A program made the translations under genes and the position numbers. 64,000 nt of DNA from Catenisphaera adipataccumulans. Lineage in GTDB: Bacteria > Bacillota_I > Bacilli_A > Erysipelotrichales > Erysipelotrichaceae. The stretch is taken from contig NZ_JACHHK010000009.1 in assembly GCF_014202755.1 (NCBI RefSeq), positions 1 through 64,000 on the forward strand, written 5' to 3'. The notes beneath the pieces were generated by a model. The model saw nothing but the letters and a program-made list of their open reading frames with translations, was not told where the DNA came from and did not search any database. Shown here piece after piece: positions 21,035 to 42,144 of this stretch. The stretch's first letter is position 1. Each line of letters opens with the position of its first letter.

Positions 21035-23554
21035 TTATTCAATGGATTTCGATAACTTTTTCAGTTCATATAAACAATCCAGCGCTTCACGCGGGCTCAT
21101 CGCATCGACGTCCATGTTCTGCAGACGTTCGACAAGTTCGGATTTCTCCGGCTGAACGGTATCCATCACAAATAGATTCGGCTGATAGCCATTGTTCCGT
21201 TCCATGCCTTCGTACTCTTTCAGCAGTTCGCCGGCACGATCCAGCACGGCCTGCGGCAGGTGCGCCAGACGGGCCACGTTGATCCCATAGGATTTATCGG
21301 CTTTGCCGCTGATCACACGATATTGAAATTCGATGTGCTGTTTTTTCTCTTTGACATCCACGTGTACATTTTTGATGGTTTTCCGCTCTTCTTCCAGATC
21401 GGTCAATTCGTGATAATGCGTCGAAAATAACGTCTTGGCCCGGATCGCACTGTCAATATACTCGATCATCGCCCGTGCCAGAGCCATCCCATCGTATGTG
21501 GCCGTGCCGCGGCCGATCTCATCAAAAAGGATCAATGAGTTTTCTGTCGCATAGCGCAGCGCAATATTGGCCTCCATCATTTCGACCATGAATGTCGACT
21601 TGCCGGTCAGAATGTCATCGCTGGCACCAATGCGGGTGAAGATCCGGTCAAAAATCGGCAGCACAGCTTGTTTCGCCGGAATAAAACTGCCCATCTGTGC
21701 CATAACCACCAACAAGGCATTCTGACGCATATAGGTGGATTTACCGCCCATATTCGGACCGGTGATGATTTCAATGTGATTGTCTTCATCCATCTGCCAG
21801 GAATTGGAGACATATTTCTGACTTTTCATATGATCATCCAAAATTGGATGTTTCCCTTCAATGATGGATACTGATCGTTCTTCATGAAACTGCGGGCAGA
21901 TATAGCCTTTTTCTGCGGCCAGATCGGCCAAAGCCGTCAGCACATCCACGGTTGCCAACGCGCGGGCACAGGCGTGCAGATCATAAAGGCGGGCCTTGAT
22001 CTTCATCAACAGTTCATGGAACAGCTCTTGTTCCAAGCGCACACGCTCTTCCTGGGCGTGCAGAATTTGTTCCTCTTTTTCTTTCAGTTCCTGGGTGATA
22101 AAACGCGTGGCATTTGCTAATGTTTGTTTCGGATGATAACCGTACTCATCTTTGATTTGATCCAGACTGCCGTTGCGCACTTCGATGTAGTAGCCGAAAA
22201 CCCGGTTATAGCCGATCTTCAGAGCTTTGATGCCGGTACGTTCTCGTTCTTTGGCTTCAATTTCCAGGATGTAATCTTTGCCTTTTTTAGCGATCTGACG
22301 GGCTTCATCCAGCTCTGCGCTGTATCCATCCGTAAAGACACCGCCGTCCTTTAAAGTCAGCGGCGGATCCTCGACGATCGCCCCTTGAATTTCTTCATAC
22401 AAATCGTAACATGTCGGCACGTCCTGCAGTTCCGGATACGATGTCAGAGCAGCGGCCAGTTCCAAAATTGGTTTGGCATGTTCCAACGAAGCCGTCAGCT
22501 GCAGAATATCGCGCGGGCCGGCATTGCCGTAGGAGATCCGGCTCGCTAATCGTTCCATATCATAGATATAAATCAAATGGTCTTTGAGGTTTTCCCGCAG
22601 CATAAAATCATCTTTCAGGATCTGCACCGCGGCCTGACGTTTCGCAATGGCAGAGGCGTCGATCAGCGGCATTTCGATCCAGTTTTTCAGCATGCGCGAA
22701 CCCATGGCACTCTTGCAGCGGTCCATAAATGACCACAGGCTCATGCCGCGGGAGCCGGAAACCAGATCCAGGTGCTGTTTGGTTTCATAGTCCATGATCA
22801 GGATCCGTTCTTTATCCATACTTTCCATCGGTATAAAATGATCGATGTGCTGTTTCTGAGTTTCTTTCAAATAACCCATCAATTGTGCCAGTGCCTGTTC
22901 CAGCGTCTCTTTGGCATCCAATGGCAGCAGTTTCCGGTCGGCTTCCTCCAATTTGGTTTTCTTCTGGCGCGAGACCATGATCGTTTCGTTTTCTTTCAAA
23001 GCGTTCAGCCAATTTTTATCAAAGCTCATCGGAATGACGACTTCGCTGACATGCTGGTCGAGCAGCGCCCGCTGCAAAGCGACCAGTGAATGTTCCACAG
23101 TTTGATATTTGAGCTCCCCTGTGCTCAATTCACAATAAAGCACACAAATCTCATAGCCGCTGACCATGACTGAGGCCAGATAATTGCTGGATTTGGCATC
23201 CAGAGCTTCATCCATATAGGTTCCCGGCGTAATGACTTTGATGATGCCGCGGTCCACGAGGCCTTTGGCTTCTTTTGGATCTTCAAGTTGTTCGCAGATT
23301 GCTACTTTATATCCTTTTTTAATTAATCGCTGAATATAATTTCCGGCTGCATGATGCGGGATCCCGCACATCGGAACTTTTTCGTTGTTGCCGGCTGCCT
23401 TAGCCGTCAGCACCAGGTCCAGTTCCCGGCTGGCAGTTTCTGCATCGTCCAGAAACATTTCGTAAAAATCGCCGACCCGATAGAATAATATTTTATCTGG
23501 ATTTGCTTCTTTTACTTTTATATAATGTTCGATCATTGGTGTATATTTTTTCAT
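21035..23554 (-). CDS. mutS: DNA mismatch repair protein MutS
   Basis: 839 residues, normal size. The mismatch-recognition domain has the Phe-x-Glu motif in FYRVGDFYEMF (residues ~24-34). The ATPase has Walker A TGPNMGGKSTYMRQ (~600), FMVEMMEAN and Walker B LILFDEIGRGTATYDG, with STHYHELTDLE at the H-loop. It starts a five-gene operon (mutS, mutL, miaA, lipid kinase, CNNM). A consensus -10 sits only six bases before the ATG, so the mRNA is predicted to be leaderless or nearly so. The start matches the family N-terminus (KYTPMIEHY). Confidence 0.97.
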   Translation of the reverse strand: MKKYTPMIEHYIKVKEANPDKILFYRVGDFYEMFLDDAETASRELDLVLTAKAAGNNEKVPMCGIPHHAAGNYIQRLIKKGYKVAICEQLEDPKEAKGLVDRGIIKVITPGTYMDEALDAKSSNYLASVMVSGYEICVLYCELSTGELKYQTVEHSLVALQRALLDQHVSEVVIPMSFDKNWLNALKENETIMVSRQKKTKLEEADRKLLPLDAKETLEQALAQLMGYLKETQKQHIDHFIPMESMDKERILIMDYETKQHLDLVSGSRGMSLWSFMDRCKSAMGSRMLKNWIEMPLIDASAIAKRQAAVQILKDDFMLRENLKDHLIYIYDMERLASRISYGNAGPRDILQLTASLEHAKPILELAAALTSYPELQDVPTCYDLYEEIQGAIVEDPPLTLKDGGVFTDGYSAELDEARQIAKKGKDYILEIEAKERERTGIKALKIGYNRVFGYYIEVRNGSLDQIKDEYGYHPKQTLANATRFITQELKEKEEQILHAQEERVRLEQELFHELLMKIKARLYDLHACARALATVDVLTALADLAAEKGYICPQFHEERSVSIIEGKHPILDDHMKSQKYVSNSWQMDEDNHIEIITGPNMGGKSTYMRQNALLVVMAQMGSFIPAKQAVLPIFDRIFTRIGASDDILTGKSTFMVEMMEANIALRYATENSLILFDEIGRGTATYDGMALARAMIEYIDSAIRAKTLFSTHYHELTDLEEERKTIKNVHVDVKEKKQHIEFQYRVISGKADKSYGINVARLAHLPQAVLDRAGELLKEYEGMERNNGYQPNLFVMDTVQPEKSELVERLQNMDVDAMSPREALDCLYELKKLSKSIE

Positions 23555-23560
23555 GTTCCT

Positions 23561-23569
23561 ATTATAGCA
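23561..23569 (-). promoter_or_regulatory. Extended -10 promoter of mutS (predicted leaderless)
   Basis: On the minus strand TGC-TATAAT ends six bases before the mutS ATG, placing the transcription start on or next to the A of the start codon. Confidence 0.6.
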
Positions 23570-23592
23570 AATTTTCTGATTGACGGTGAATA

Positions 23593-23601
23593 TGGTATAC
23601 T
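23593..23601 (+). promoter_or_regulatory. Extended -10 promoter of rodA
   Basis: TGG-TATACT at 23593-23601 with no convincing -35; the transcript start is near 23608, followed by AAGGGGG before the rodA GTG. Confidence 0.6.
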
Positions 23602-23628
23602 ATATGCAAATTGTAAGGGGGTCCCGGA

Positions 23629-24864
23629 GTGAAACGGACAGTAGTTTTTCGTAATAATACGTTTCAAGTGGATGTCGGCCTGCTGGTGATTTTATTGATT
23701 TTAATGTTCACGAGTTGTTTTGCGCTGTACAACGCATTCAATTTAATTAGTGAAGGCAGCGGTCCTACCTACTTGTTTCGTCAGATTTTATGGTACATCA
23801 TCGGTTTTACCGTTATGTTCCTGCTGACGTCCATGTCCAATGAGGTCATTTTTAAATATGTAAAAAAGGCATATACAATTTTAATGTACTGCCTGCTTTA
23901 TTTATTGGGCTCCAGCATCTTGAATCGTGTGACCGGTCATACGCTGCCGTTCGCACCTTCGATCAATGGTGCCGTTTCCTGGCTGAGCATTCCGCTGTTA
24001 GGAAGTTTTCAGCCCAGTGAGTTCATGAAGATCGTATTGATCGTGCTGGTCTCCAAAGCTATTCGGGATCATCAGGATGCTCACCCACATCCTAGCGGTG
24101 CTGATGATCTGCAGCTGTTATTGAAAATCCTGCGGATCACTTTGCCTTCATTGATTTTGATCTTCCTGCAGCCGGATACCGGTGTCTGCATCATCATCGT
24201 CTTTACGATTTTGGTGCTGTTGATCTGTTCCGGCATCCGAAAACAATATATCGTCGTTTTGCTTTCGGTCATTGTTGCCGCGGTTGTACTTTTCTTCTAT
24301 TTGTTTTTATTCCATGAAGATTTCATTGCGCAGTTTATTTCCGCTTACCGTCTGCAGCGGATCGAAGCCTGGCTGAACCCGGATGAATATATTTTAGGCA
24401 GTTCAAATCAGCTGTATACTGCTTTGCTTTCATTGGGCAGCGCCGGCCTGACGGGATACGGTCTGCAGGCGAATGTCATTGCGATCCCGGAAGCGCATAC
24501 GGACTTTATCTTTGCGGCGATCGGACAGTGTTTTGGCTTGATCGGCACGACCGCAATTGTTCTGCTGTGCATGGGATTGGACTTGTATTTATGCATGATG
24601 GCATATCGGATGAAAGATCGTATGGATCGATTTATTGTCATTGGTGTAGTGGCCATGTTGTTCTATCAGCAGATCCAAAACCTGGGTATGATCGTCGGTA
24701 TCTTTCCGATCACCGGTATCACCTTACCGCTGATTTCGTACGGCGGCAGCAGTATCTTGTCTTATTTTATTTCATTTGCGATCATCATGAACCTCAGTCC
24801 GGAGAGTCATAAAAAAGCGATCCGTATCTTGGCGGACCGCCCAAAGAAAGCGAAAAAAGCTTAA
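23629..24864 (+). CDS. rodA: RodA/FtsW-type peptidoglycan polymerase (SEDS family)
   Basis: 411 residues with about ten membrane segments. SEDS signature pieces are present: PFAPSINGAVSWL (extracellular loop), LQPDTGVCIIIV with the essential Asp, and the C-terminal VGIFPITGITLPLISYGGSSIL. These enzymes polymerise lipid II with a class B PBP in elongation (RodA) or division (FtsW). RodA is favoured because it is monocistronic, outside a dcw cluster, and RodA-like in the ITGITLPLISYGG block, but FtsW is not excluded. The start is GTG at 23629 with AAGGGGG seven bases upstream. Its stop overlaps that of nadK tail-to-tail (TTAA at 24861-24864). Confidence 0.93.
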   Translation: MKRTVVFRNNTFQVDVGLLVILLILMFTSCFALYNAFNLISEGSGPTYLFRQILWYIIGFTVMFLLTSMSNEVIFKYVKKAYTILMYCLLYLLGSSILNRVTGHTLPFAPSINGAVSWLSIPLLGSFQPSEFMKIVLIVLVSKAIRDHQDAHPHPSGADDLQLLLKILRITLPSLILIFLQPDTGVCIIIVFTILVLLICSGIRKQYIVVLLSVIVAAVVLFFYLFLFHEDFIAQFISAYRLQRIEAWLNPDEYILGSSNQLYTALLSLGSAGLTGYGLQANVIAIPEAHTDFIFAAIGQCFGLIGTTAIVLLCMGLDLYLCMMAYRMKDRMDRFIVIGVVAMLFYQQIQNLGMIVGIFPITGITLPLISYGGSSILSYFISFAIIMNLSPESHKKAIRILADRPKKAKKA

Positions 24865-25634
24865 TATAAATTTTTCAGACGTTTTAAATAAGAATAAGTG
24901 CGGTATCGAACGAACCGTACTTTTTTTTCGGATGTTTTCATATGAATTTCGTTCACATCATTTAAGCCGATATGCAGGTGATCGTAACAAGCTTCAGCGT
25001 TGTGCAGCGAAACACTTCGGATGACAACTTCCCGATCGGATTTCATGATATACGGATTTAAAAGTGTATGATGGATCTTATGTGAAATCGGCATGATCTC
25101 GCACAGCTGCAGGACCTGCAGACCGGAATCAACGACTGCACCTTTCAGGGCGCGGTTCACGGCTGTCGATCCTGCCTGCGTGCTCAGACAAATACCGGAG
25201 CCGGTCGTTCTTTCAAAGAACTCCCCATCAATATAGATATCAAGATATAAGGTTTTTTCCAGACTTTCGATACGGATTTCATTCAGGGCGTAGTCTTTAA
25301 ACTCTTTTTCCGGAATGTCAAATTCTAGTAAAGGTGATTCTTCAATATAGGGTTTTTGATTCACAATATCATCTAAGAATAATTCCAGCTCATCCTGCGT
25401 ATAGTCTGTAAAAAAGCCCAACGTTCCCGTATGGATCCCTACAAACATGATCTTATCCAAACAATCGATGTACTTATGAATGGCCCGCAGCAGCGTGCCG
25501 TCACCGCCGATCGACAGAATGATCTCCGGATCATCCGGCCGATATTCCCATCCTGCTTTCAAACATTCTTTTTTTAAATAATCCCCTACTCGCTTTGAAT
25601 TGACATCACCGCGCAGCTGAAACGAAAACCTCAT
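24861..25634 (-). CDS. nadK: NAD kinase
   Basis: 257 residues. Phosphorylates NAD to NADP. Motif GGDGTLLRAIHKY lies near residue 44, NE is present in ALNEIRIES, and the glycine-rich block reads GSGICLSTQAGSTAVNRALKGAVV. The short form resembles Bacillus PpnKA. Starts at 25640 or 25634 are both possible (AAGGA upstream); MRFSFQLRG at 25634 looks like the family start. Divergent from the CYTH gene, as in the Bacillus yjbK-yjbN region, where CYTH and NadK genes are also linked. Confidence 0.95.
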   Translation of the reverse strand: MRFSFQLRGDVNSKRVGDYLKKECLKAGWEYRPDDPEIILSIGGDGTLLRAIHKYIDCLDKIMFVGIHTGTLGFFTDYTQDELELFLDDIVNQKPYIEESPLLEFDIPEKEFKDYALNEIRIESLEKTLYLDIYIDGEFFERTTGSGICLSTQAGSTAVNRALKGAVVDSGLQVLQLCEIMPISHKIHHTLLNPYIMKSDREVVIRSVSLHNAEACYDHLHIGLNDVNEIHMKTSEKKVRFVRYRTYSYLKRLKNLY

Positions 25635-25662
25635 AAACATCACTTTCCTTTTTGATGTTCTC

Positions 25663-25671
25663 ATTGTACCA
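25663..25671 (-). promoter_or_regulatory. Extended -10 promoter of nadK
   Basis: Minus-strand TGG-TACAAT about 20 bases upstream of the nadK start codon region; no -35 hexamer recognised. Confidence 0.55.
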
Positions 25672-25691
25672 TAAAGAACGAGGTGAAGAAT

Positions 25692-26246
25692 ATGCCAAAA
25701 CCAATTGAACGCGAATTAAAAATTTTAGTACAGCCTGATCAATATGAAAAAATAATCCATTCATATGATTTTACCAAACCATGGCAGCAGACGAATACAT
25801 ATTATGATACCAAAAATGGTTATATTCATTCATTAGGCGGTGCAATGCGTATCCGAACGATCAATGACCGTCATATTTTTACCCTGAAGATCCGCACGGA
25901 TTCTATTACGCATATTGAATTGGAAAAAGATATCGAAGCTCATACGATTGATGAGATCCATGATCCAGAGATCCTTCATTGGCTGCAGGAATATCATATT
26001 CCAATTTCAGAAATGAACGTAATTACATCTTTTACGACAAAACGACAGACCTATACAACGGAATTCGCCGAAATTAGCGCGGATCATACGGTTTTTCCCG
26101 ATCATAGTGATTATGAAATTGAATATGAATATCGGAAAGAACACGATGGGATCTCCGTTTTTAATCAGATGTTACAGAAAGTCGGACTGACTTATACAAA
26201 AAACTGCCCCAGCAAGATTGCCAGGGCTTTGCATTATAATTTATGA
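25692..26246 (+). CDS. CYTH-domain triphosphate-tunnel protein (YjbK-like)
   Basis: 184 residues. The N-terminal motif IERELKILV matches the E-x-E-x-K signature of the CYTH fold except that the usual third residue is altered. The barrel strands with alternating charged residues (AMRIRTIN, FTLKIRTDS, HIELEKDIE, YEIEYEYRKEHD) fit a triphosphate tunnel metalloenzyme. Such proteins hydrolyse inorganic triphosphate or similar substrates; the substrate is not predictable. ATG at 25692 with GAGGTG six bases upstream is chosen over an in-frame GTG at 25683. The 3' end overlaps the convergent coiled-coil gene by 13 bases. Confidence 0.88.
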   Translation: MPKPIERELKILVQPDQYEKIIHSYDFTKPWQQTNTYYDTKNGYIHSLGGAMRIRTINDRHIFTLKIRTDSITHIELEKDIEAHTIDEIHDPEILHWLQEYHIPISEMNVITSFTTKRQTYTTEFAEISADHTVFPDHSDYEIEYEYRKEHDGISVFNQMLQKVGLTYTKNCPSKIARALHYNL

Positions 26247-26824
26247 GTGAGCCGGTAGAAGAAAGATTTTGAATTATATTCTTCTTTCTGTCTTTTTAAT
26301 TCATTTAATTCAGATTCCAAAGATTCCATTTGACCGGATTTTTCTTCCAGATCTTTTTTTTCATTCTCTAATTTTTCTTTCTCATCCTTCAGAGTCTGAT
26401 TTTCAGATTCTAATTCAGATATCCGATCATCTTTTTGTTGGTTCTCTAATAAAAATGTTTGTTTACTCTTTTCCAGCTCTAGAGATAATCTTTCTTTATA
26501 TAATTCTTCGATTTTATCCATTGATTTTTGTTTCTCTTCCAGAACGGCTTTGAGCTTTTCGTTTTCATACCGCAATTCGGTTTCTACAGGAGAAACTTCG
26601 TGTTTTTCTTTTCTAAAATACTTAGAAAGTTTCTCTACGCCCTCTGCCTTGATCGTGATCCGCCGCGTCTTAGGATTCTTGTATTTATATCCAGCATCCG
26701 GATAATTCTTCACCAATTTCGCAACAGCTTTATCGACTGTGTTTCTGGACTTCGAAAACATTTCGCATATTTCAGCGATTTCCATATCATAATAGACTTC
26801 AACCGGTTGATTTGAATCCTGCAT
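26234..26824 (-). CDS. Helix-turn-helix / coiled-coil protein with C-terminal amphipathic tail (RocS-like architecture)
   Basis: 196 residues from ATG 26824 (GAGGGTG six bases upstream; an in-frame GTG lies at 26833). Residues ~8-65 form a winged-helix-like DNA-binding domain: EIAEICEMFSKSRNTVDKAVAKL, then a basic KNPKTRRITIKAEG. Residues ~75-180 are an almost uninterrupted E/K/L-rich coiled coil. The last residues SKSFFYRLTHKL could form a short amphipathic or membrane-touching helix. This three-part design matches the DUF536-type proteins and the pneumococcal chromosome-segregation factor RocS; RacA of Bacillus is an alternative analogue. The gene faces away from a 700-bp AT-rich block full of TCATATGA palindromes, a plausible binding site. 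Function is inferred, not shown. Confidence 0.75.
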   Translation of the reverse strand: MQDSNQPVEVYYDMEIAEICEMFSKSRNTVDKAVAKLVKNYPDAGYKYKNPKTRRITIKAEGVEKLSKYFRKEKHEVSPVETELRYENEKLKAVLEEKQKSMDKIEELYKERLSLELEKSKQTFLLENQQKDDRISELESENQTLKDEKEKLENEKKDLEEKSGQMESLESELNELKRQKEEYNSKSFFYRLTHKL

Positions 26825-26833
26825 CCTTTTCAC

Positions 26834-27528
26834 CCTCTAATCATGCATCCGTTTGTTCAGATTTAAATCCTATGAACAGTCATACCCTAATTTTCTGTTC
26901 ATATTCTATTCCGATTTCTAGCGTGCATGTTAATCTTACCATCATATGAAAATGGAATCAATAAAATTTCTGATTTTTTTCAATCATATGAATATATTTT
27001 TTCAATATACTCGATGATTTTGGATTCATATGAAATATAAATATCAATTTCTTCCTATTCATATGAATATTTATCTTATTTTTTAATCATATTTCTTTCA
27101 TGTGATTGTTCACATTATAGAAATAGCATGATTTTTTATTAAATTTTCCGTTCATATTGACATTATTCATGAGAATATGATGTTCATATATTTTTACAAA
27201 TGTCTATTTATAGATAAATTTTTCATGATTTGATGATTCATATAATTATTGGAAAATTTCCCTCATTCTAGTCAATATATTCAATAACTATTTACTCTTT
27301 ATTAGTGATTTCACTTTGTTTGCATTTTTTTAACTATTACAATCTATTTATACTAAGTTTTATCTTCAATATAATTTTACTGTGATTTAACTTATACGTA
27401 CAAGTACGAATGAAATTCGTTATTTCTGCATTAAATATAAAAATCATATGAAGAGAATACTCGAGATCCTTTTCATATGATCATGTAAAATCCTTCTGAT
27501 TATTCATATATTTATCATGTGAAACGTC
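26834..27528. repeat. AT-rich non-coding block with phased TCATATGA palindromes
   Basis: About 695 bases without a credible gene, far richer in A+T than its surroundings. Perfect TCATATGA occurs at 26942, 26984, 27026, 27059, 27444 and 27473. The first three are 42 bases apart and the next 33. Near-matches (TCATAT at 27087, TCATGTGA at 27098 and 27514, TTCATATTGA at 27151, TCATATA at 27184, 27238 and 27503) fill the gaps. The spacing of about four helical turns suggests a protein-binding array. It lies between the coiled-coil gene and recR, 13 kb from oriC. Confidence 0.7.
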
Positions 27529-28113
27529 CTATTTACGTCCCTGAAAGGCTCTGAGCAGGGTTAAACTGTCTGTATAATCTAAATGTCCGCCAATCGGAAT
27601 ACCATATGCCAATCGTGTGATTTTTACTTTATCTTTCAGAAGCTTTTCGATATATAAGGCGGTTGTTTCGCCATCCATCGTTGGATCCGTCGCCAGGATC
27701 ACTTCTTGTGTTTCCTCATTGATCCGATCCAATAAGGATTGGATATTCAGCTGATCGGGAAGAATGCCTTTTTTCATGTTTATGGTTCCATTTAAGACAT
27801 GGTACACGCCATTGTATTCCTGCATTGATTCAATGGCTGCAATATCTTTCGGACTTTCTACAACACAGATCATATTCCGATTCCGATCAGGATCCGCACA
27901 AATTGAACATTTTTCTCCGCTGCTCAGATTTCCACAAATCTTACAACGCTGTATTCCTGTTTTCATATGATTCATTGCATCCAGAAAGTCGTTTAACGTT
28001 TCCGGGTCCCAATCCAGCATCGTATAGGCATAACGCTCTGCTGTCTTCGCACCAACACCAGGAAGCTTCTGAAAGGCCTGAATCAAGTCATTAAATTTTT
28101 TTGGATAATTCAT
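27529..28113 (-). CDS. recR: Recombination mediator protein RecR
   Basis: 194 residues. RecR works with RecF/RecO to load RecA at gaps. It has the helix-hairpin-helix LPGVGAKTAERYAY, the zinc finger CKICGNLSSGEKCSIC, and the TOPRIM segment (VVESPKDIAAIES to ILATDPTMDGETTALYIEK). It follows dnaX by three bases, the conserved dnaX-recR pair; the YbaB nucleoid protein usually encoded between them is missing here. Confidence 0.97.
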   Translation of the reverse strand: MNYPKKFNDLIQAFQKLPGVGAKTAERYAYTMLDWDPETLNDFLDAMNHMKTGIQRCKICGNLSSGEKCSICADPDRNRNMICVVESPKDIAAIESMQEYNGVYHVLNGTINMKKGILPDQLNIQSLLDRINEETQEVILATDPTMDGETTALYIEKLLKDKVKITRLAYGIPIGGHLDYTDSLTLLRAFQGRK

Positions 28114-28116
28114 AGA

Positions 28117-29871
28117 TCAATCTTCCTCCACTTTCAGATTCGGAAATATCTTCTTTAATTCATTCTCTTCTGTATTTTCCGGCTTCTTTTCCTCTTCCAT
28201 AGGAACAGTCACATCAACCGGGGAAGGGAGGGTCCCTTCTTTCATCCTTTTCACAAAATCTTTTGTGACACGTTGTTTCTGATTCATATCAATCGCGAAG
28301 ATCTTTTTCGGCTTGCCAATTAATTTCTTCATAAAAGGTGCATAGGATTCTTTTTCCTCCGTCAGATTGATTTCGTTGGCTTCCATCTCTGTATTCACAC
28401 AAATCAGCAGATAATGATCAGATGCTGCGAATATCGATGAGGTATTAAGTGAACCAGCATACTTTCCATAATCTGGATCGGTCTGATAAAGGATACGATC
28501 TTCATATTTGTATTCATCTTCTTTTCTGATTTTCTTATCCGATCCTACTAACAGCTGCAGGATGTATTCATCGTCAAATATGATTTTATGATTCGGAATT
28601 TCTGACTGTTTCAATGTTTCACGTGAAACATCAGATTCTGCTTTACTGTCCTTTTTCGCTATTTTATTGGCTTTTTTGGCCTTTTTCTCAATTATTTCTG
28701 ACTTATCAGATGTTGATTCATGTGACTTTGAAGCTGTATTCGCATGGTTTGAATATCTGATTTCAGATTTTTCTGCTGCTTTCTCATGTTCATATGATTG
28801 AGAAATCAACTTTAATAACGCAGTTTCCAGGTAATCCAGCACATTCGATGCATACGGATATTTATTGTATGTATCCATTAGTTCATCCAACAAACGAATG
28901 CGGAAGGGAAGAGGGGAAGCCGCCATATATTTCTGCACCACTGATTTTGAACGTTCGCCGACCAATGTCGAATTCGGAGAATAATCCAAAATAATACTTT
29001 CCTTTAATAGTGATATAAAATCTGACGTGAGTCGTTTCATATCCATCCCACGCTCATAAGCATCCTGCAGATTTCGGATCACATCCTCTACATCCTGCTG
29101 GTACAACTTTTCAAATAAAGAACCAATATCTTCTTTTGTCAGGATACCGTAGATTTGACGAACATCATCCACATGGATCTTGTTTTCACAATATGCACGG
29201 CATTGATCCAAAATGGATAATGCGTCGCGCATGCCGCCGTCGCTCAAAAGGGCAATCAAAGAAACCGCTTCGTCTTCGATGGCAATTTTCTCTTGTTCAC
29301 AAATCACATGAATACGATATTCGATATCTTTTTGACTGACCTTCGTAAAATCAAATCGCTGGCAGCGGGAAATGATGGTCGGCAGTACTTTGTTTGGTTC
29401 CGTCGTCGCAAAAACAAAGACGACATGTTCCGGCGGTTCTTCGATGGTCTTCAGCAGAGCATTCAAAGCGCTCGCTGTCATCATATGAACCTCATCAATA
29501 ATATAAACTTTGTATTTTCCTTCCATCGGTGCATATTTCACACGATCGATCAGATTACGGACTTCGTCGACACCGTTATTTGATGCGGCATCGATCTCAA
29601 TGATATCCGGATGACTGCCGTTCAAGGCCATCCGACAATTTTCACAATGACCGCAGGGGCGATCGTTGTTTTCGGATGTACAGTTTAATGTACGGGCGAA
29701 AATCTTCGCAATGGATGTTTTTCCCGTACCGCGCGGGCCGCAGAATAAATACGCATGGGCAATTCGATTCTGTACCACTGCATTTTTCAATGTCTGCACG
29801 ATATGCCGCTGGCCTACAACTTCATCAAATGTAGCCGGTCGATATTTACGATATAACGCTTGATACGCCAT
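28117..29871 (-). CDS. dnaX: DNA polymerase III subunit gamma/tau
   Basis: 584 residues, the clamp-loader ATPase. Walker A GPRGTGKTSIAK (~residues 46-57), zinc module (Cys in TLNCTSENNDRPCGHCENC), Walker B VYIIDEVHMM, and sensor/arginine-finger PTIISRCQRFDF. Domains I-III end near 360. A K/S-rich, low-complexity linker (~375-420) leads to a divergent C-terminal tau domain. Runs of AAA/AAG lysine codons occur in the linker, where frameshifting to a short gamma form happens in some bacteria, but no canonical slippery heptamer in frame was confirmed. A perfect parS site lies inside the linker-coding region. Confidence 0.96.
   Translation of the reverse strand: MAYQALYRKYRPATFDEVVGQRHIVQTLKNAVVQNRIAHAYLFCGPRGTGKTSIAKIFARTLNCTSENNDRPCGHCENCRMALNGSHPDIIEIDAASNNGVDEVRNLIDRVKYAPMEGKYKVYIIDEVHMMTASALNALLKTIEEPPEHVVFVFATTEPNKVLPTIISRCQRFDFTKVSQKDIEYRIHVICEQEKIAIEDEAVSLIALLSDGGMRDALSILDQCRAYCENKIHVDDVRQIYGILTKEDIGSLFEKLYQQDVEDVIRNLQDAYERGMDMKRLTSDFISLLKESIILDYSPNSTLVGERSKSVVQKYMAASPLPFRIRLLDELMDTYNKYPYASNVLDYLETALLKLISQSYEHEKAAEKSEIRYSNHANTASKSHESTSDKSEIIEKKAKKANKIAKKDSKAESDVSRETLKQSEIPNHKIIFDDEYILQLLVGSDKKIRKEDEYKYEDRILYQTDPDYGKYAGSLNTSSIFAASDHYLLICVNTEMEANEINLTEEKESYAPFMKKLIGKPKKIFAIDMNQKQRVTKDFVKRMKEGTLPSPVDVTVPMEEEKKPENTEENELKKIFPNLKVEED
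28615..28630. other. parS centromere-like site (ParB binding), perfect consensus
   Basis: TGTTTCACGTGAAACA, identical to the 16-base palindromic parS consensus of Firmicutes. It lies within dnaX about 12-14 kb from oriC. The cognate parA/parB genes are at the right end of the window. Confidence 0.95.
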
Positions 29872-29896
29872 AAGACACCTGCTTTCTCGTGAGACT

Positions 29897-29905
29897 ATTA
29901 TAACA
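29897..29905 (-). promoter_or_regulatory. Extended -10 promoter of dnaX-recR
   Basis: Minus-strand TGT-TATAAT about 26 bases before the dnaX ATG, which is itself preceded by AGGTG. Confidence 0.6.
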
Positions 29906-29918
29906 TGTTCTTTGCATA

Positions 29919-29957
29919 CAAAAAGAAACGGTCACGATTTCTTTTGTTTCCGTTTCT
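29919..29957 (-). terminator. Probable terminator of tadA
   Basis: AGAAACGG / CCGTTTCT arms (29924-29931 and 29950-29957) around the tadA stop, with a short T-run downstream on the minus strand. The loop is 18 bases, so the call is moderate. Confidence 0.5.
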
Positions 29958-30393
29958 CTTTGAAAAATTCCTTCAGGAGATCACTGCATTCCTCCTGGCA
30001 GATGCCGCTGCTGACTTCTGGATAGTGATTAAATCCTTTGACCTTTAACAAGTCCGTACAAGATCCCATACATCCGCCTTTCGGATCATAGGCGCCGAAT
30101 ATCACCCGACGGATCCGTGATTGAATGATTGCTCCGGTGCACATCGGACAAGGCTCCAAAGTCACATATAAATCACAATTCTCCAGCCGCCATGTCCCCA
30201 ATTTCCGACACGCTTTTTGAATGGCTAAAATTTCGGCATGGGCCGTGCTTAACTGTTTGATCTCGCGTTGATTATATGCCCGGGATATGATTTTCCCATC
30301 GTGAACGATAATGCAGCCAATCGGAACTTCATCTTTTTCTGCTGCTTTTTTGGCCTGTTTGATGGCTTGTTTCATCCATTGTTCATCTGTCAT
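29932..30393 (-). CDS. tadA: tRNA-specific adenosine deaminase TadA
   Basis: 153 residues. Deaminates A34 to inosine in tRNA-Arg(ACG). Zinc-deaminase motifs HAEILAIQKA (His ligand and catalytic Glu) and PCPMCTGAIIQSR are intact, and GCMGSCTDLLKVKGFNHYPEV matches TadA rather than generic cytidine deaminases. The chosen ATG (30393) begins MTDEQWMKQAI, as in the family. A TATAAT ends six bases upstream, so the mRNA may be leaderless; the alternative ATG at 30411 would lie upstream of that -10. Divergent from the SRP RNA gene. Confidence 0.94.
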   Translation of the reverse strand: MTDEQWMKQAIKQAKKAAEKDEVPIGCIIVHDGKIISRAYNQREIKQLSTAHAEILAIQKACRKLGTWRLENCDLYVTLEPCPMCTGAIIQSRIRRVIFGAYDPKGGCMGSCTDLLKVKGFNHYPEVSSGICQEECSDLLKEFFKEKRKQKKS

Positions 30394-30414
30394 ATTTGTA
30401 TTATACCCCATACC

Positions 30415-30443
30415 TTTACAAATTCTTTATTTCTTGATAAAAT
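30415..30443 (+). promoter_or_regulatory. Promoter of the SRP RNA gene
   Basis: TTTACA (30415-30420), a 17-base spacer and TAAAAT (30438-30443). It predicts the RNA start near 30450. Confidence 0.75.
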
Positions 30444-30449
30444 GATTGC

Positions 30450-30535
30450 GCTACTACAATGACATCTTGTGAATCAGGTCAGGATGGGAACATAGCAGCC
30501 TTAAGCAGGCGCTGTCATGTGTAGTAGTTCTTTTT
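30450..30535 (+). ncRNA. ffs: Signal recognition particle RNA (4.5S-type, small bacterial)
   Basis: The conserved Ffh-binding domain is readable: CAGGTCAGG, GGGAACA, AGCAGCCTTAAGCAG, with the GGAA-type tetraloop replaced by a related purine loop. The ends pair (GCTACTACAATGACA with TGTCATGTGTAGTAG), giving a single hairpin of ~85 bases. A T-run follows directly. It guides Ffh in co-translational membrane targeting. The small size lacks an Alu domain, unlike Bacillus scRNA. Confidence 0.93.
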
Positions 30536-30545
30536 TTTGCTTATG

Positions 30546-30580
30546 AAAAAGCTTGATCATATGATCAAGCCTTTCTTTTT
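30546..30580. terminator. Bidirectional terminator between SRP RNA and trpB2
   Basis: Perfect palindrome GCTTGATCAT/ATGATCAAGC (30551-30570), with A-run on the left and T-run on the right. Confidence 0.8.
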
Positions 30581-31950
30581 TATCGATTGATTTTCGGTAA
30601 CTTTTTAAAGCTTTCTTCCAGCTCTTCATCGGTTGGAATGTAGTCTTTCATCGTACCGTCGTTATAAGCCTCATAGGCCGTCATATCAAAATAACCCGTT
30701 CCCGTTAAACCGAATACGATGGTCTTCGCTTCACCGGTCTCTTTGCATTTGAGTGCTTCATCAATTGCTGCGCGGATCGCGTGACTGCTTTCCGGTGCCG
30801 GCAGGATGCCTTCAATACGCGCAAATTGTTCCGCTGCCGCAAAGACAGATGTCTGTTCTTCCGACACAGCTTCCATGTATCCGTCATGATACAGCTGCGA
30901 TAGGATCGGACTCATACCATGGTAGCGCAGACCGCCCGCATGGTTCGGAGAAGGAATGAAATCATAACCCAGCGTATACATCTTTGCCAGCGGTGTGACC
31001 ATGCCCGTATCGCAGAAGTCATAAGCAAATTTACCGCGGGTAAAGCTCGGGCAGGAAGCCAGTTCGACCGCAATGATCCGGTAATCTTTTTCGCCGCGTA
31101 ATTTCTCACCCATAAAAGGTGCGATCAATCCGCCCAAGTTAGAGCCGCCGCCGGCACAGCCGATGATAATATCCGGTTCAATGCCATATTTCTTCAATGC
31201 CGTCTGGGTTTCCAATCCGATCACAGACTGATGCAGAACGACCTGATTCAGTACGCTGCCCAGTACATAACGATAACCTTCATGCGTTGTCGCATCTTCA
31301 ACGGCTTCAGAAATTGCACAGCCTAAGCTGCCGGTCGTACCTGGATGTTCCGCATTGATCTTTCGGCCAACTTCTGTATTCATCGATGGGGAAGGGGTGA
31401 CCGTCGCACCATAGGTCCGCATCACTTCACGACGGAATGGTTTTTGTTCATAGGAAACTTTTACCATATAGACACGGCAGTCCAAATGGAAATAGGCACA
31501 TGCCATTGATAAAGCAGTTCCCCATTGACCTGCACCAGTCTCTGTCGTGACGCCTTTCAGCCCTTGCTTCTTTGCATAATATGCCTGTGCAATGGAAGAA
31601 TTCAGCTTGTGGCTGCCGCTGGTGTTGTTGCCTTCAAACTTATAATAAATCTTTGCCGGTGTATCCAGCGCTTTTTCCAGATGGTATGCCCGACACAGCG
31701 GAGAAGGACGGTAGGTCTTATAATATTCCTGGATTTCTTCAGGAATATCAAAGAACGGCGTATCATTGTCTAATTCCTGACGGATCAGATCGTCACAAAA
31801 TACCGGCCGCAGATCTTCAAACTGCATGACTTCGCCCGTACCTGGATTTAATAACGGCGCCGGTTTATTTTTCATATCCGCACGGACGTTGTACCACTGT
31901 TTCGGAATTTCATCTTCTGATAAATAAATTTTGTTTGGAATTTTTTTCAT
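30580..31950 (-). CDS. TrpB2-type tryptophan synthase beta-like PLP enzyme
   Basis: 456 residues. Fold type II PLP enzyme of the TrpB2 class. The PLP lysine motif is EGNNTSGSHKLNSS (~residue 105); TETGAGQWGTALS carries the catalytic Glu; GCAGGGSNLGG binds the phosphate. The N-terminal PKQWYNVRADM is typical of TrpB2. No trpA or other trp genes are nearby, so it may condense indole (or another nucleophile) with serine or phosphoserine as a stand-alone salvage enzyme. The start at 31950 (MKKIPNKIYLSEDEIPKQ) is chosen by family alignment; a weak GGAG/GAGAGA lies upstream. Confidence 0.93.
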   Translation of the reverse strand: MKKIPNKIYLSEDEIPKQWYNVRADMKNKPAPLLNPGTGEVMQFEDLRPVFCDDLIRQELDNDTPFFDIPEEIQEYYKTYRPSPLCRAYHLEKALDTPAKIYYKFEGNNTSGSHKLNSSIAQAYYAKKQGLKGVTTETGAGQWGTALSMACAYFHLDCRVYMVKVSYEQKPFRREVMRTYGATVTPSPSMNTEVGRKINAEHPGTTGSLGCAISEAVEDATTHEGYRYVLGSVLNQVVLHQSVIGLETQTALKKYGIEPDIIIGCAGGGSNLGGLIAPFMGEKLRGEKDYRIIAVELASCPSFTRGKFAYDFCDTGMVTPLAKMYTLGYDFIPSPNHAGGLRYHGMSPILSQLYHDGYMEAVSEEQTSVFAAAEQFARIEGILPAPESSHAIRAAIDEALKCKETGEAKTIVFGLTGTGYFDMTAYEAYNDGTMKDYIPTDEELEESFKKLPKINR

Positions 31951-32036
31951 TAAAAAAATCTCTCTTTCTCCTTCAATGAAAACATGATTTTCAATAAATG
32001 TCAAAGTTTTCAGAAACAAAAAAGACTGATTTTACA

Positions 32037-33326
32037 TCAGTCTTTCGGTACTAATTTTTCTGTTCCGCCCATATACGGCTGCAGCGGCTTTGGAATCAAA
32101 ACGGTGCCGTCTTCCTGCAAGTTATTTTCCAGGAATGCGATCAACATCCGCGGCGGAGCAACACATGTATTGTTCAACGTATGGGCAAAATACTTCTTAC
32201 CGTCTTTGCCTTTGACACGGATCCGTAAACGGCGTGCCTGGGCATCGGTCAAATTCGAACAGCTGCCGACTTCAAAGTATTTCTTCTGACGCGGCGACCA
32301 AGCTTCCACATCGACCGATTTGGATTTCAGATCAGCCAGATCTCCGGAGCAGCATTCAAGCGTACGAACCGGAATATCCAGCGAGCGGAAGAATTCTACC
32401 GTATTCATATACAGCTTCTTAAACCATGCTTTGCTTTCTTCCGGTTTACAAACCACGATCATTTCCTGTTTTTCAAACTGATGGATCCGGTAGACACCGC
32501 GTTCTTCAATGCCGTGTGCACCTTTTTCCTTACGGAAACACGGTGAATAGGATGTCAATGTGTACGGCAGTTTTTCTTCATCCAAGATCGTATCGATAAA
32601 TTTACCAATCATGGAATGTTCGCTGGTTCCGATCAAATAAAGATCTTCACCTTCGATCTTATACATCATGCCATCCATTTCTTCAAAAGACATCACACCG
32701 TCAACGACTGCGCTGCGGATCATGAACGGCGGGACCACATACGTAAAACCTTTGTTGATCATGAAATCACGTGCATAACTTAAGATCGATGAATGCAGAC
32801 GGGCGATGTCTCCCATTAAATAATAGAAACCATTGCCGGCCACACGTCTGGCACTGTCCAGATCGATACCGTCAAATTTTTCCATAATTTCTGTATGATA
32901 AGGAATTTCAAAATCCGGAACAGCGGGTTCACCGAAGCGTTCCAATTCGACATTCTCGCTGTCATCCTTACCGATCGGAACCGTATCCTCGATCATGTTC
33001 GGGATCATCATCATCTTTTTATGAACAGATTCCCGCAAGGCATTTTCTTTTGTTTCCAAAGCTTCCAGTTCATCGGCCATCTCTGTCACGCGATTTTTGA
33101 TTTCCTGGGCTTCTTCTTTTTTGCCCTGACCAATCAGCATACCAATTTTCTTGGATATCTTTTTCCGCTGTGCACGCAGATCATCTGCATGCTGCTGGGT
33201 CTGACGAAGATCCTTATCTTCTTTTAAAACTTCATTGACCAAGTGAACTTTTGAATCCTGGAATTTTTTCTTCATGTTTTCTTTGACTAAATCCGGATTC
33301 TCACGCACAAATTTGATGTCTAACAT
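32037..33326 (-). CDS. serS: Seryl-tRNA synthetase
   Basis: 429 residues from ATG 33326. An N-terminal two-helix coiled-coil arm (about 25-110) that grips the tRNA-Ser long variable arm precedes the class II core. Motif 2 is FRKEKGAHGIEERGVYRIHQFEKQE. Motif 3 reads NNTCVAPPRMLIAFLENN instead of the usual bacterial GSGLAVGRTLVAILEN, although the key Arg is kept. The block SVDVEAWSPRQKKYFEVGSCSNLTDAQARRL also looks like archaeal-type SerRS. It may therefore be a laterally acquired form (inference from memory of the families). A T-box leader precedes it. Confidence 0.95.
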   Translation of the reverse strand: MLDIKFVRENPDLVKENMKKKFQDSKVHLVNEVLKEDKDLRQTQQHADDLRAQRKKISKKIGMLIGQGKKEEAQEIKNRVTEMADELEALETKENALRESVHKKMMMIPNMIEDTVPIGKDDSENVELERFGEPAVPDFEIPYHTEIMEKFDGIDLDSARRVAGNGFYYLMGDIARLHSSILSYARDFMINKGFTYVVPPFMIRSAVVDGVMSFEEMDGMMYKIEGEDLYLIGTSEHSMIGKFIDTILDEEKLPYTLTSYSPCFRKEKGAHGIEERGVYRIHQFEKQEMIVVCKPEESKAWFKKLYMNTVEFFRSLDIPVRTLECCSGDLADLKSKSVDVEAWSPRQKKYFEVGSCSNLTDAQARRLRIRVKGKDGKKYFAHTLNNTCVAPPRMLIAFLENNLQEDGTVLIPKPLQPYMGGTEKLVPKD

Positions 33327-33334
33327 TTCTTTTC

Positions 33335-33615
33335 CTCCAATAAAAAAGACTTCGCTCCACAAAGGGACGATGTCTCGCGTTGCCACCCTTTTTATCTTTC
33401 ATAAAAAGATCACTCTGCATGATAACGGTCTGTACCGGAATGAACTACTCTTTTCATCCATTCGTTCCAAGGGGCTTTTCATTCATTTCGCTTTCGATAT
33501 TTGCACCAGCCATATCGTCTCTGAAAAAGCCGAAATCAACTACTTTTCCTTATCAACACTTTCTTTATTTATATCATTCTTTCCAGCAGAATTCAAGAAT
33601 CGGATTTTCATATGA
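33335..33615 (-). promoter_or_regulatory. T-box riboswitch leader of serS
   Basis: On the minus strand the T-box core AGGGTGGCAACGCGAG (33374-33390 region) is followed by CGTCCCTTT and a terminator helix (AGACATCG...CGAAGTCT) with a T-run at about 33341-33375. Upstream, Stem I features are visible: an AGAGA bulge, the GGCTGGTG distal-loop sequence (33504-33511) and the Stem III motif CCGTTATC (33421-33428). Uncharged tRNA-Ser would stabilise the antiterminator and switch serS on. The specifier codon could not be assigned with confidence by eye. Confidence 0.93.
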
Positions 33616-33619
33616 GTGA

Positions 33620-33648
33620 AATAAAAATCCCGCTAAAACGGCGGGATC
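33620..33648 (-). terminator. Terminator of gyrA / end of the yaaA-recF-gyrB-gyrA operon
   Basis: ATCCCGC / GCGGGAT stem (33627-33647) followed on the minus strand by a T-rich stretch. Confidence 0.8.
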
Positions 33649-33653
33649 TTTGC

Positions 33654-36131
33654 TTATCTATATTCTTGTTCTTCTTCCGGTTCTTGTTCCTCTTCCTGAT
33701 GATCAACCAATGTCAGACGGGTCACTTTCGCATTTTCTGTCAAATTGATCAGCCGGACGCCCTGCGTATTGCGTCCATAGATTCCAATGGAATCGATCGG
33801 GATCCGGATCATGATACCGCTGCTTGATACGATCATCGCATCTTGTTCCGGATTGACTGCTTTGGCGACCATTAGATTTCCGGTCTTTTCCGTGATGTTC
33901 ATGGTGCTTACACCTTTCTTACCACGCGAAGTCAGACGATAATCATCAATCTGGCTGCGCTTGCCGTAGCCGTTCTCAGAAATAGAAAGCAGCGTATCGC
34001 CTTCATGACTGACGGCACAGCCGACCACATGATCACTGCCGACATCCATACCGCGGACACCGGCTGCGGTTCGTCCCATCATCCGAATATCGGTTTCTTT
34101 AAAGCGGACAGCTTTGCCGTTGGAAGCCGCAATAATGACTTCTTCCTGACCAGTCGTCGGTTTCACGAAGAACAATAGATCATTTTCCCGTAAATCAATG
34201 GCAATCTTACCATTCTTATTGATATGACGGAATTCATCGACCGACGTCCGCTTGACGATACCGTTTTTGGTCACAAACAGCAATGTCTTGAAATCTGAAT
34301 CCTGCGGAATCGAAAGCAGCGTCGTAACGTTTTCCTCCTTATTCAAGGAAATCAAATTGACGACCGGAATACCTTTCGATGTACGGGATGCATTCGGCAC
34401 ATTATATCCCTTGATCCGGAATACACGGCCCTTGTCGGTAAATAAAAGCAAAATATCATGCGTATTCATCGACAGCATCGTATCAATGGCATCGTCTTCA
34501 TTCAGCGTCAACGACTTAATGCCGCGGCCGCCGCGATTCTGGGTCCGATAGGTATCAACTGGTGTCCGTTTGATATAGCCGGACATCGTCAGCATCACGA
34601 TGACATCTTCCTTCGGAATAAGATCTTCATCATCCATATCTACATAAGCATCGGTGATTTCCGTACGACGTTCATCGCCGTATTTTTCATTGATTTCTGT
34701 TAAATCATCGCGGATGATCTTCAGGACACGGTCATGATTTGCCAAAATATCCTTGTAGTCGGCAATCTTCAGCAGCAGTTCCTGATATTCGCGCTCGATC
34801 TTATCGCGTTCCAATCCGGATAAACGGCGCAGCTGCATTGCCAGGATAGCTTTGGCCTGGATCGTATCAAAACCAAATTTTTCACATAACTCAGCATTCA
34901 AACCGGCTTCATCTTTATGGGAACTGCGGATGGTCTGGATCACTTCATCCAGCCGATCCAGCGCAATGCGGAATCCTTCTAATATATGCGCACGATCTTG
35001 TGCTTTCTTCAATTCAAATTTAGTCTTGCGGACAATGACTTCCACCTGGAAATCAATATAGTCGTTAATAATGTCTTTTAACGGCAGCTGACGCGGCCGG
35101 CCGTTTTCCAGTGCCAGCATATTGATGCCGAAACTGGACTGCAGCGGCGTCAGGCGGAACAATTGATTTAAGATCACATCTTCCTGAGCATCCTTGCGCA
35201 GTTCCATGACGATCCGAATTCCTTCCCGGTTACTTTCATCATTCAGATAGGTCACACCGTTGATTTCTTTGTTTCGGATCAATTCGGCCATTTTTTCAAT
35301 TAATTTTGATTTATTGACCGCATAGGGAATTTCATAGAAAATGATCTGTTTTTTGCCATTGCTTAATTCATTCACATGATATTTGGAACGCACCATGATC
35401 GAACCGCGGCCTGTTTCATATGCTTTGCGGATCCCTTTGCGTCCCAAAATGATACCGCCGGTCGGAAAATCCGGTCCTTTGATATAGTTCATCAATTCCG
35501 GCACCGTAATATCCGGATTGTCCATCACTGCAAAAATTGCCTGAATGGTCTCACCCAGATTATGCGGCGGAATATTGGTTGCCATACCTACCGCAATACC
35601 GACGGATCCATTGATCAATAAATTTGGGATCCGGCTTGGCAGCACAGTTGGTTCGGTTTCCTCTCCATCATAGTTTTCGACGAAATCCACGGTATCCTTA
35701 TTAATATCCCGCAGCATTTCTGTCGCAATTTTAGACATACGAGCCTCGGTATATCGCATCGCGGCTGCTTCATCGCCGTCCAGTGATCCAAAGTTGCCGT
35801 GGCCGTCGACCAGCGGATACCGGTAAGCGAAATCCTGCGCCATACGAACCATCGCATCATACACAGCGACATCGCCGTGCGGGTGATATTTACCTATGAC
35901 TTCACCGACGATACGGGCACTTTTTTTATGTGCAACATTGGACGTAATGCCCAATTGATTCATTGCATGTAAAATACGACGATGGACCGGTTTCAGTCCA
36001 TCACGAACGTCCGGCAAGGCACGTTGTACGATGACCGACATAGAATAATCCAGAAAGTCTTCACGGATTTCTTTGGAGATCTCCACTTCTTCTATACGAT
36101 CATGTTCATTGTTTCGATTTTCATCTTCCAT
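33654..36131 (-). CDS. gyrA: DNA gyrase subunit A
   Basis: 825 residues. Type IIA topoisomerase subunit that breaks and rejoins DNA. The catalytic tyrosine is in [11 protein letters not shown] (~residue 126). The quinolone-determining region reads [19 protein letters not shown]: the residue at the Ser83 position is Val-Ala-Val (GDVAVYD rather than GDSAVYE), which may lower quinolone sensitivity. Six beta-pinwheel repeats follow; the GyrA box appears as [11 protein letters not shown]. The tail is acidic ([11 protein letters not shown]). Follows gyrB by 12 bases with AGGAGG. Confidence 0.97.
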
Positions 36132-36143
36132 GGCAGCCTCCTA

Positions 36144-38111
36144 TTAAAAATCCAAGTTCGCATATACTGCATTTTTCTGTATAAACTCACGCCGCGGTCC
36201 GACTTCTTCGCCCATGAGCAAATCAAAAGTCGAATCGGCATATTCTGCGTCTTCGATCGTTACGCGTTTTAAGATCCGGTTTGCCGGGTCCATGGTTGTT
36301 TCCCACAGCTGTTCGGCATCCATCTCACCTAAGCCTTTGTATCGCTGAACTTTATAGCCATCTTTTAATTCAGCACGGATCTCATCCATTTCCTGCTCTT
36401 TATAGGCGTACAGGATCTTTTTACCTTTCTGCACCTTATAAAGCGGCGGCTGTGCGATATAAACATAACCGCCTTCGATGACAGGTTTCATATACCGATA
36501 TAAGAACGTCAGCATCAAGGTGGCAATGTGCGCACCGTCGACATCGGCATCGGTCATGATGACAATTTTGTGATAACGCAGTTTGGACACATCCACCTCA
36601 TCTTTGATGCCGCATCCAAAAGCAGTGATCATACTGCGGATCTCTGCATTATCAAAGATCTTATGTTCACGGGCTTTTTCGACGTTGATGATCTTGCCGC
36701 GCAGCGGCAGGATCGCCTGCGTACGGGCATCGCGGCCTTGTTTCGCCGAACCGCCGGCGGAGTTCCCCTCGACAATATAAATTTCACATTCACTGGCATC
36801 TTTGCTGGAACAGTCCGTTAATTTACCTGGCAGTGAAGAAATGCCGTCCAGCGCCGATTTCCGGCGGGTCAGCTCACGGGCTTTTTTCGCAGCGACACGT
36901 GCCTTGGAAGCAACGAGCGCTTTATCAATGATAGCTTTGGCTGAATTTGGGTTTTCCAAGAAATACCGCTGCAGCTGTTTGCCGACAATACCGGAAACGA
37001 TCTTACGGACTTCACTGTTGCCTAATTTTGTTTTCGTCTGACCTTCGTACTGCGGGTTTGGATGCTTGATGGAAATGATGGCCACCAAACCTTCCTTGAC
37101 GTCATCTTGAGAAAGCGATTCATCTTTCTTCAGCAAGTTGTTTTTCTTGGCATATGCGTTGATTTCACGCGTCAGCGCCAGACGGAAACCATCTTCATGA
37201 TAGCCGCCTTCCTGCGTGTGAATATTGTTGCAGAACGAATAGATATTTGACTGATAACTGTCGTTATATTGTAAAGCAACCTCTGCCAGAATACCGTCGA
37301 CCAGACCTTCACAATAGATAACGTCATCTTCGATCATCCCTTTGTTCCGGTTCAAATATTTTACATATTCAATGATACCGCCGGCATAACGATATTCATT
37401 ATGCACTGGCTGATCGCCGCGTTCATCCGTCAGCGTCAGGCAGATGCCTTTGTTTAAGAATGCCAGCTGACGTAAACGGGTATTCAAAGTTTCAAAATCA
37501 TATTCGGTCGTTTCTTTAAAAATGGTCGGATCTGCCTTAAAACGCACATACGTTCCCGTTTCTTTGGTTTTACCGATCACTTTCAGCGGCTGGACCGTAT
37601 GACCGCCGTTTTCAAAACGGATGTAGTAGATCTTGCCGTTCTGATAAACCGTGACTTCCAGCCATTCGCTCAAAGCGTTGACGACACTGGCGCCGACACC
37701 ATGCAGACCGCCAGAAACTTTATAAGCACCGCCGCCGAATTTACCGCCGGCATGTAAAACGGTCATAATGGTTTCTACGGCACTGACACCGGTTTTTTCA
37801 TGAATGCCGGTCGGCATACCGCGGCCATTATCCCGAACGGCAATGATATTACCTTTTTCGATGGTCACATCAATTTCATCCGCAAATCCAGCCAATGCCT
37901 CATCAATACCATTATCGACAATTTCCCAGACCAGATGATGAAGACCGCGGGCACTGGTCGAACCGATGTACATGCCCGGACGCAGCCGAACGGCTTCCAA
38001 TCCTTCCAGCACCTGAATATCGTTCGCTGTATAGGAATGATCCACGCTGGTTGCTTCATTTTCCAGCTCATCGTATTCCAATATTTCTTGCTGCAATTCT
38101 TCCTGACTCAT
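36144..38111 (-). CDS. gyrB: DNA gyrase subunit B
   Basis: 655 residues. GHKL ATPase ([39 protein letters not shown]), transducer domain with [11 protein letters not shown], and the TOPRIM domain ([29 protein letters not shown], and DADVDGAHI binding Mg2+). The C-terminus [16 protein letters not shown] is the gyrase-type ending. ATGA overlap with recF indicates coupling; AAAGGAGGT precedes the start. Confidence 0.98.
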
Positions 38112-42121: not shown

Positions 42122-42144
42122 GAATCCTCCTTTTCGCATTCAAT

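Follow-up and report, generated by a model that had tools for sequence, protein, structure and literature searches.

A helically phased palindrome array beside recR in a clade of the Erysipelotrichaceae: a candidate centromere-like site and its putative membrane tether

In the pSK1 Par system, centromere-like repeats lie directly upstream of the gene for the protein itself. Par is a single, plasmid-borne protein with a winged helix-turn-helix (wHTH), a coiled coil and a MinD-like tail (PMC11500499, in extract). RocS of the Streptococcaceae, which has an N-terminal wHTH, a coiled coil and a short basic amphipathic C-terminal tail, works with ParB near parS and oriC (PMC11500499 and PMC13042908, both in extract). 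Its tail holds the membrane only after RocS has oligomerised, and its affinity for DNA corresponds to a KD of ~34 uM, with a 500-bp fragment used in the gel shift (PMC11500499, in extract). In Bacillus subtilis, RacA is a single protein that links the origin to the cell envelope through short ram sites that are dense near the origin (PMC6593407). In ParABS systems, origin-proximal palindromes mark the centromere. Here we describe a locus of Catenisphaera adipataccumulans that has features in common with each of these systems. The window analysed is the first 64,000 nucleotides of contig NZ_JACHHK010000009.1.

The array, its phasing and its distribution

The array lies in the spacer between recR and a gene for a 196-aa protein. 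The features of this region are as follows.

26234..26824, minus strand: gene for the 196-aa protein, a candidate site-binding membrane tether
26834..27528: AT-rich intergenic block (24% GC) between recR and the candidate tether gene, holding the TCATATGA array
26868..26875: variant site TCCTATGA/TCATAGGA, 74 bases (~7 turns) from site 1
26942..26949: site 1, perfect TCATATGA
26984..26991: site 2, perfect, +42 from site 1
27026..27033: site 3, perfect, +42 from site 2
27059..27066: site 4, perfect, +33 from site 3
27098-27105: one-mismatch site TCATGTGA
27444..27451: site 5, perfect, +385 from site 4
27473..27480: site 6, perfect, +29 from site 5
27515..27522: variant (one-mismatch) site TCATGTGA, 42 bases from site 6

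A preliminary description of this DNA had reported six perfect copies of the palindrome with steps of 42, 42 and 33 bases at the left end, several one-mismatch copies and no room for a gene. A motif search found the six copies at the same positions and with the same steps, the one-mismatch copies are those listed above, and no gene fits in the block. The rough estimate that far less than one copy would be expected is also borne out: the block's own first-order (dinucleotide) composition predicts 0.15 copies and the rate elsewhere in the genome predicts 0.017 (Poisson probability of at least six copies, ~3e-14). A scan of the block for promoters and terminators gave no excess over shuffled sequences.

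The gene is present in 24 of the 273 genomes of the family Erysipelotrichaceae, in 11 of 60 genera, and the named carriers include Faecalicoccus, Holdemanella, Faecalitalea, Ileibacterium, Allobaculum, Absicoccus and Floccifex. A sample of 296 genomes from the class gave no copy outside the family, and the confirmed matches of a GTDB scan all fall within the carrier clade. The synteny tadA-dnaX(parS)-recR-block-gene-CYTH-ppnK-ftsW-mutS-mutL is kept wherever a contig covers the region, and in all such carriers the gene and the array occur together. Across 23 blocks there are 80 copies of TCATATGA against 2.24 expected, 74 of them in the 22 relatives. This palindrome ranks first of all 256 8-base palindromes, the runner-up having 8 copies, and the variant TCATAGGA is found 31 times across the family against 0.9 expected. 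In 26 family genomes without the gene there is no array behind recR, the place being taken by a short gap or another gene; dnaX in these genomes often retains parS. Conservation of the block among close relatives always goes with the gene, and genomes that lack one lack the other. In the recR tree all carriers group together in a single clade (95/87), which suggests that gene and array were gained, or kept, once and together. The record L053 falls within the carrier clade in this tree; its title, Erysipelothrix rhusiopathiae MAG, is probably wrong.

The array is weak in an Allobaculum-like subclade, and two of its members (L048 and L056) have no perfect site though the gene and its recognition helix are conserved. 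An altered motif in this subclade was considered and rejected: no other palindrome is enriched there and TCATATGA is again at the top (5 against 0.37). Two gene copies of this subclade, L059:10150-10647 and G146:C1:408455-409115, appear frame-shifted or interrupted; the neighbouring genes in L059 also look broken, so a sequencing error is possible. A plasmid or phage origin of the gene was likewise rejected, as tblastn against 72,556 plasmid and 50,697 phage records found no relative of the protein; a search of viral_contigs returned one 43-residue fragment as a match.

Neighbouring sites are ~31, 42, 53, 73, 84, 94-96, 104-106, 125, 136-137, 146-147 or 157-158 bases apart and the spacings differ between genomes. 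The best period in the range 8-16 bp is 10.50 (mean cosine 0.82 over 50 spacings), a value reached in 0 of 5000 random placements. Because genomes of the same clade are not independent, the test was repeated with one genome per subclade (n=36, Rayleigh p ~1e-11), and the distinct spacing values alone give p ~1e-6. Control words from these blocks show no phasing. The variant TCATAGGA is in phase with the perfect sites (mean cosine 0.90, n=18); this is an independent check, as the variant was not used to define the period. The 29-base step to site 6 is a poor fit to the rule. Spacings that fall on multiples of 10.5 bp place the sites on the same face of the DNA. The phasing at 42 bases noted earlier is one case of a general 10.5-bp rule that is visible only across genomes.

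Sites around the origin and within coding sequence

The array is the peak of an origin-proximal cluster of TCATATGA of ~17 kb. The further features that bear on this are as follows.

21826..38479: origin-proximal cluster with 14 copies of TCATATGA within 16.7 kb, where the rate elsewhere in the genome predicts 0.4
25761..25768: TCATATGA in the CYTH-domain gene, S-Y-D codons, held in 17/24 genomes
27529-28113, minus strand: recR
27963..27970: TCATATGA inside recR
28615..28630: parS TGTTTCACGTGAAACA inside dnaX, perfect, the only perfect copy in the assembly
28790..28797: TCATATGA in the variable linker of dnaX, S-Y-E codons, held in 12/23 genomes
29481..29488: TCATATGA in the conserved part of dnaX, VHMM codons, 11/23 genomes
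40763..42139, minus strand: dnaA
62911..63684, plus strand: parA (soj), followed by parB past the end of the window (contig 63689-64567)

By search counts, there are 17 copies of TCATATGA in the window against 2.4 expected and 64 in the whole 2.0-Mb assembly, so that the 47 outside the window amount to ~1 per 41 kb in the rest of the genome. From 3.5 per kb in the array the density drops to 1.4 and 0.6 per kb across dnaX and farther out; control palindromes occur at roughly 0.02-0.06 per kb. The scattered copies noticed earlier in coding sequence and at a terminator are present, at slightly different positions: 24938 and 27963 (given as 24942 and 27965) and 30557 (given as 30551). The last of these, at 30557-30564, is directly 3' of trpB within a palindromic terminator-like stretch.

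The genes of the origin region run leftwards in the order dnaA, dnaN, recF, gyrB, gyrA, serS, tadA, dnaX, recR. The sign of the GC skew switches at ~40-42 kb, near dnaA, which places oriC ~13-15 kb from the array. The sole perfect parS of the assembly lies inside dnaX at a distance of 1.1 kb from the array; nearly every carrier has it at the same place, as do many relatives in which the array is missing. A near-complete relative (G112, with a 3.15-Mb main contig of two) has 76 copies of TCATATGA, 12 of which lie between 7.3 and 29.5 kb of the contig, which starts at dnaA; the candidate tether gene is 14.8 kb from that start. The G112 cluster reaches 10 copies in a 20-kb stretch, and elsewhere, among the 71 places listed, no such stretch has more than 2. 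These figures bear on the earlier caution that genome-wide counts matter: the motif density is not equal elsewhere, and the G112 chromosome has a single cluster. Carriers and non-carriers do not differ clearly in their genome-wide totals, which makes the signal a local rather than a global one. Genome-wide enrichment was therefore rejected as a mark of the system, and only local clustering differs.

Within dnaX and the CYTH gene the sites are at fixed columns in many genomes. The DnaX linker is hypervariable, with an S-Y-[ED] island precisely at the location of the site. In these two genes S-Y-[DE] is encoded as TCATATGA in 42 of 43 cases, in comparison with 9 of 35 in other genes (p 5e-12); TCA makes up 19% of serine codons. 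Shuffling synonymous codons gave 16.5 expected sites in dnaX and 7.1 in the CYTH gene, against 40 and 20 observed. On this sequence evidence, the coding sites in dnaX and the CYTH gene are under selection at the level of DNA. The S-Y-E and S-Y-D islands (28790-28797 and 25761-25768) look as if they are dictated by the DNA site and not by protein function.

The adjacent protein and alternative roles

AlphaFold2 models give the 196-aa protein an N-terminal wHTH (~10-74), a long coiled coil (~79-185) and a C-terminal SKSFFYRLTHKL tail, with the elements E11-15, H16-23, H27-40, E47-50, E55-59 and H60-74 followed by a single helix, 79-195. The HTH residues KxRNTVDKAxAKL are nearly invariant, which would be in line with the unchanging site. 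In an alignment with 22 further homologues no part outside the wHTH is better conserved than the C-terminal tail (consensus EEYNSKSFFYRLTHKF). This tail, SKSFFYRLTHKF / NKGFFYRLTHKF, is similar to RocS KKGFFARLFGGK, and the consensus to the RocS membrane-targeting sequence AKEEVQATKKGFFARLFGGK (PMC13042908, in extract). It has a net charge of +3 and a moment of 0.40-0.57, in comparison with 0.20 for RocS on the same scale. By this resemblance the tail is a candidate membrane anchor. A variant site overlaps the ribosome-binding site of the gene in 13 of 23 genomes (10 by automatic count, and L039, L040 and L049 by eye), a position that suggests autoregulation.

No Pfam or NCBIfam family scores above its cut-off for the protein and there is no ParB-family match; the best Pfam match of the consensus wHTH, HTH_36, is below cut-off. 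HMMER searches of PDB, Pfam and NCBIfam gave no significant homology to RacA, RocS or Par. The top-probability PDB match of the wHTH is RacA bound to DNA (5i44_K, probability 0.97, TM 0.62), but it is weak (E 0.2). DUF536 (PF04394) was found neither in G000 nor in 20 relatives, the Lactococcus lactis control being positive. Spo0A_C has no match over the cut-off in the nine carriers tested (G000 and eight others), with one weak sub-threshold match in G041; there are several matches in three relatives without the gene. The carrier clade may have lost sporulation.

We consider it likely that the block is a chromosomal centromere-like (anchoring) site, and that the adjacent protein binds the phased array, tethers the origin and parS to the membrane and aids segregation. 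Other explanations have to be set against this. That the array is a chance or compositional artefact of an AT-rich spacer is practically untenable: the block is 76% A+T and the 8-mer itself is A+T-rich, but the excess over composition is 35-fold across 23 blocks, where no other 8-base palindrome comes close, the sites are helically phased, and the array is missing in relatives without the gene. The block could also be thought to control replication initiation or to be an accessory origin, as it is AT-rich and ~13-15 kb from dnaA. This is very improbable, since the GC skew changes sign near dnaA and not at the block, and since the array follows a clade-specific gene while relatives without that gene keep dnaX-recR without an array.

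Short palindromes are often bound by wHTH regulators. The protein might then be an autoregulator, or a regulator of recR, dnaX or a neighbour, and the repeats repression sites with no role in chromosome handling; the array is directly upstream of the gene and the variant over the ribosome-binding site would fit. However, there are typically three to six perfect sites plus variants across 500-700 bases, dnaX and the CYTH gene keep further sites as far as several kb to either side, with parS in the middle, and a coiled coil of 100 residues with a conserved tail also goes beyond what an operator needs, so we regard a purely regulatory role as unlikely. A protein that bridges sites of the origin region as a local nucleoid-associated protein, or helps to load SMC, without membrane attachment would agree with sites spread over 10-17 kb around parS and with helical phasing, which fits a bridged or wrapped filament. 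It would leave aside the tail, a part better conserved than any other outside the wHTH and similar to a membrane-targeting sequence, and we think such a role quite unlikely. The preliminary description had thought it plausible that the neighbouring protein binds a site with a centromere-like, silencing or segregation function. Neither equal motif density elsewhere nor a lack of conservation in close relatives, which that description had named as counter-evidence, was found. The centromere or segregation part of that proposal is supported, with a single origin-proximal cluster beside parS that is conserved with the gene; silencing is not favoured because motif totals are not raised in carriers and the sites form that one cluster.

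Comparison with known systems and a proposed mechanism

We propose that the protein works like RocS and RacA but belongs to neither. It shares with RocS the order of wHTH, coiled coil and short basic, predicted amphipathic tail; parS lies 1.1 kb from the array here, and parA and parB are present. In contrast with RocS, it has no DUF536, which RocS needs, and no detectable overall sequence relation to it; its gene is beside a defined DNA array, while the extracts of the RocS papers cited above report no specific site; and the genome of the window keeps ParA, which the pneumococcus does not have. As DUF536 is absent, the protein was not filed as RocS or Par. Like RacA, it has a coiled coil and short sites dense near the origin, and its wHTH may be MerR-like, to judge by the weak best PDB match. 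The RacA site is GC-rich (PMC5859096), however, and the site here, though also origin-proximal, is AT-rich; RacA anchors through DivIVA in sporulation, whereas an amphipathic tail is predicted here. With an AT-rich site and no Spo0A match over the cut-off in nine carriers, the protein was not filed as RacA either.

The domain order and the single-protein design also recall pSK1 Par, and here too the repeats, a possible centromere and operator, are upstream of the gene, with a variant over its ribosome-binding site in 13 of 23 genomes. The gene described here, in contrast, is chromosomal, clade-wide and without DUF536. With ParABS the locus shares origin-proximal palindromes, and parS is within the same cluster as the array. 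TCATATGA is not parS, however, which is single and separate, and the protein is no ParB.

In the proposed mechanism, dimers of the wHTH/coiled-coil protein would bind the TCATATGA palindromes cooperatively, all on one face of the helix, and the coiled coils and amphipathic C-terminal tails of many dimers would thus project together. This multivalency would allow weak MinD/RocS-like tails to hold the origin/parS region at the membrane, and a region held in this way would aid chromosome segregation beside ParABS. The scattered sites in dnaX, the CYTH gene and other flanking genes would widen the bound domain to ~10-17 kb. A one-face array of many dimers would thereby supply the multivalency that a RocS-like tail needs. 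The array, its phasing, its exclusive occurrence with the gene, the DNA-level selection on coding sites, the nearby parS and the predicted wHTH and coiled coil are read from the sequence. Binding of the protein to these sites, its contact with the membrane and its role in segregation are what we infer from the locus as a whole. The motif or system is not named in the literature found, among open-licence papers. Whether this is a previously undescribed chromosomal centromere system, in which a clade-specific non-NTPase protein with no detectable sequence relation to RocS, RacA or Par reads a phased TCATATGA array and fixes parS and the origin to the membrane, the clade itself having no detectable Spo0A, is in our judgement evenly balanced.

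If true, the system would amount to a tether of the RocS type with a defined DNA address, and it would touch on the question of how single proteins such as RocS, RacA and pSK1 Par, which have no motor of their own, can move or hold DNA. The module consists of a protein and a compact predicted site beside parS, and the same-face geometry itself suggests a multivalent mechanism. Additionally, dnaX and the CYTH gene offer a case in which selection for a DNA site overrides protein sequence. The module is present in genera of the human gut, for example Holdemanella, Faecalitalea and Faecalicoccus.
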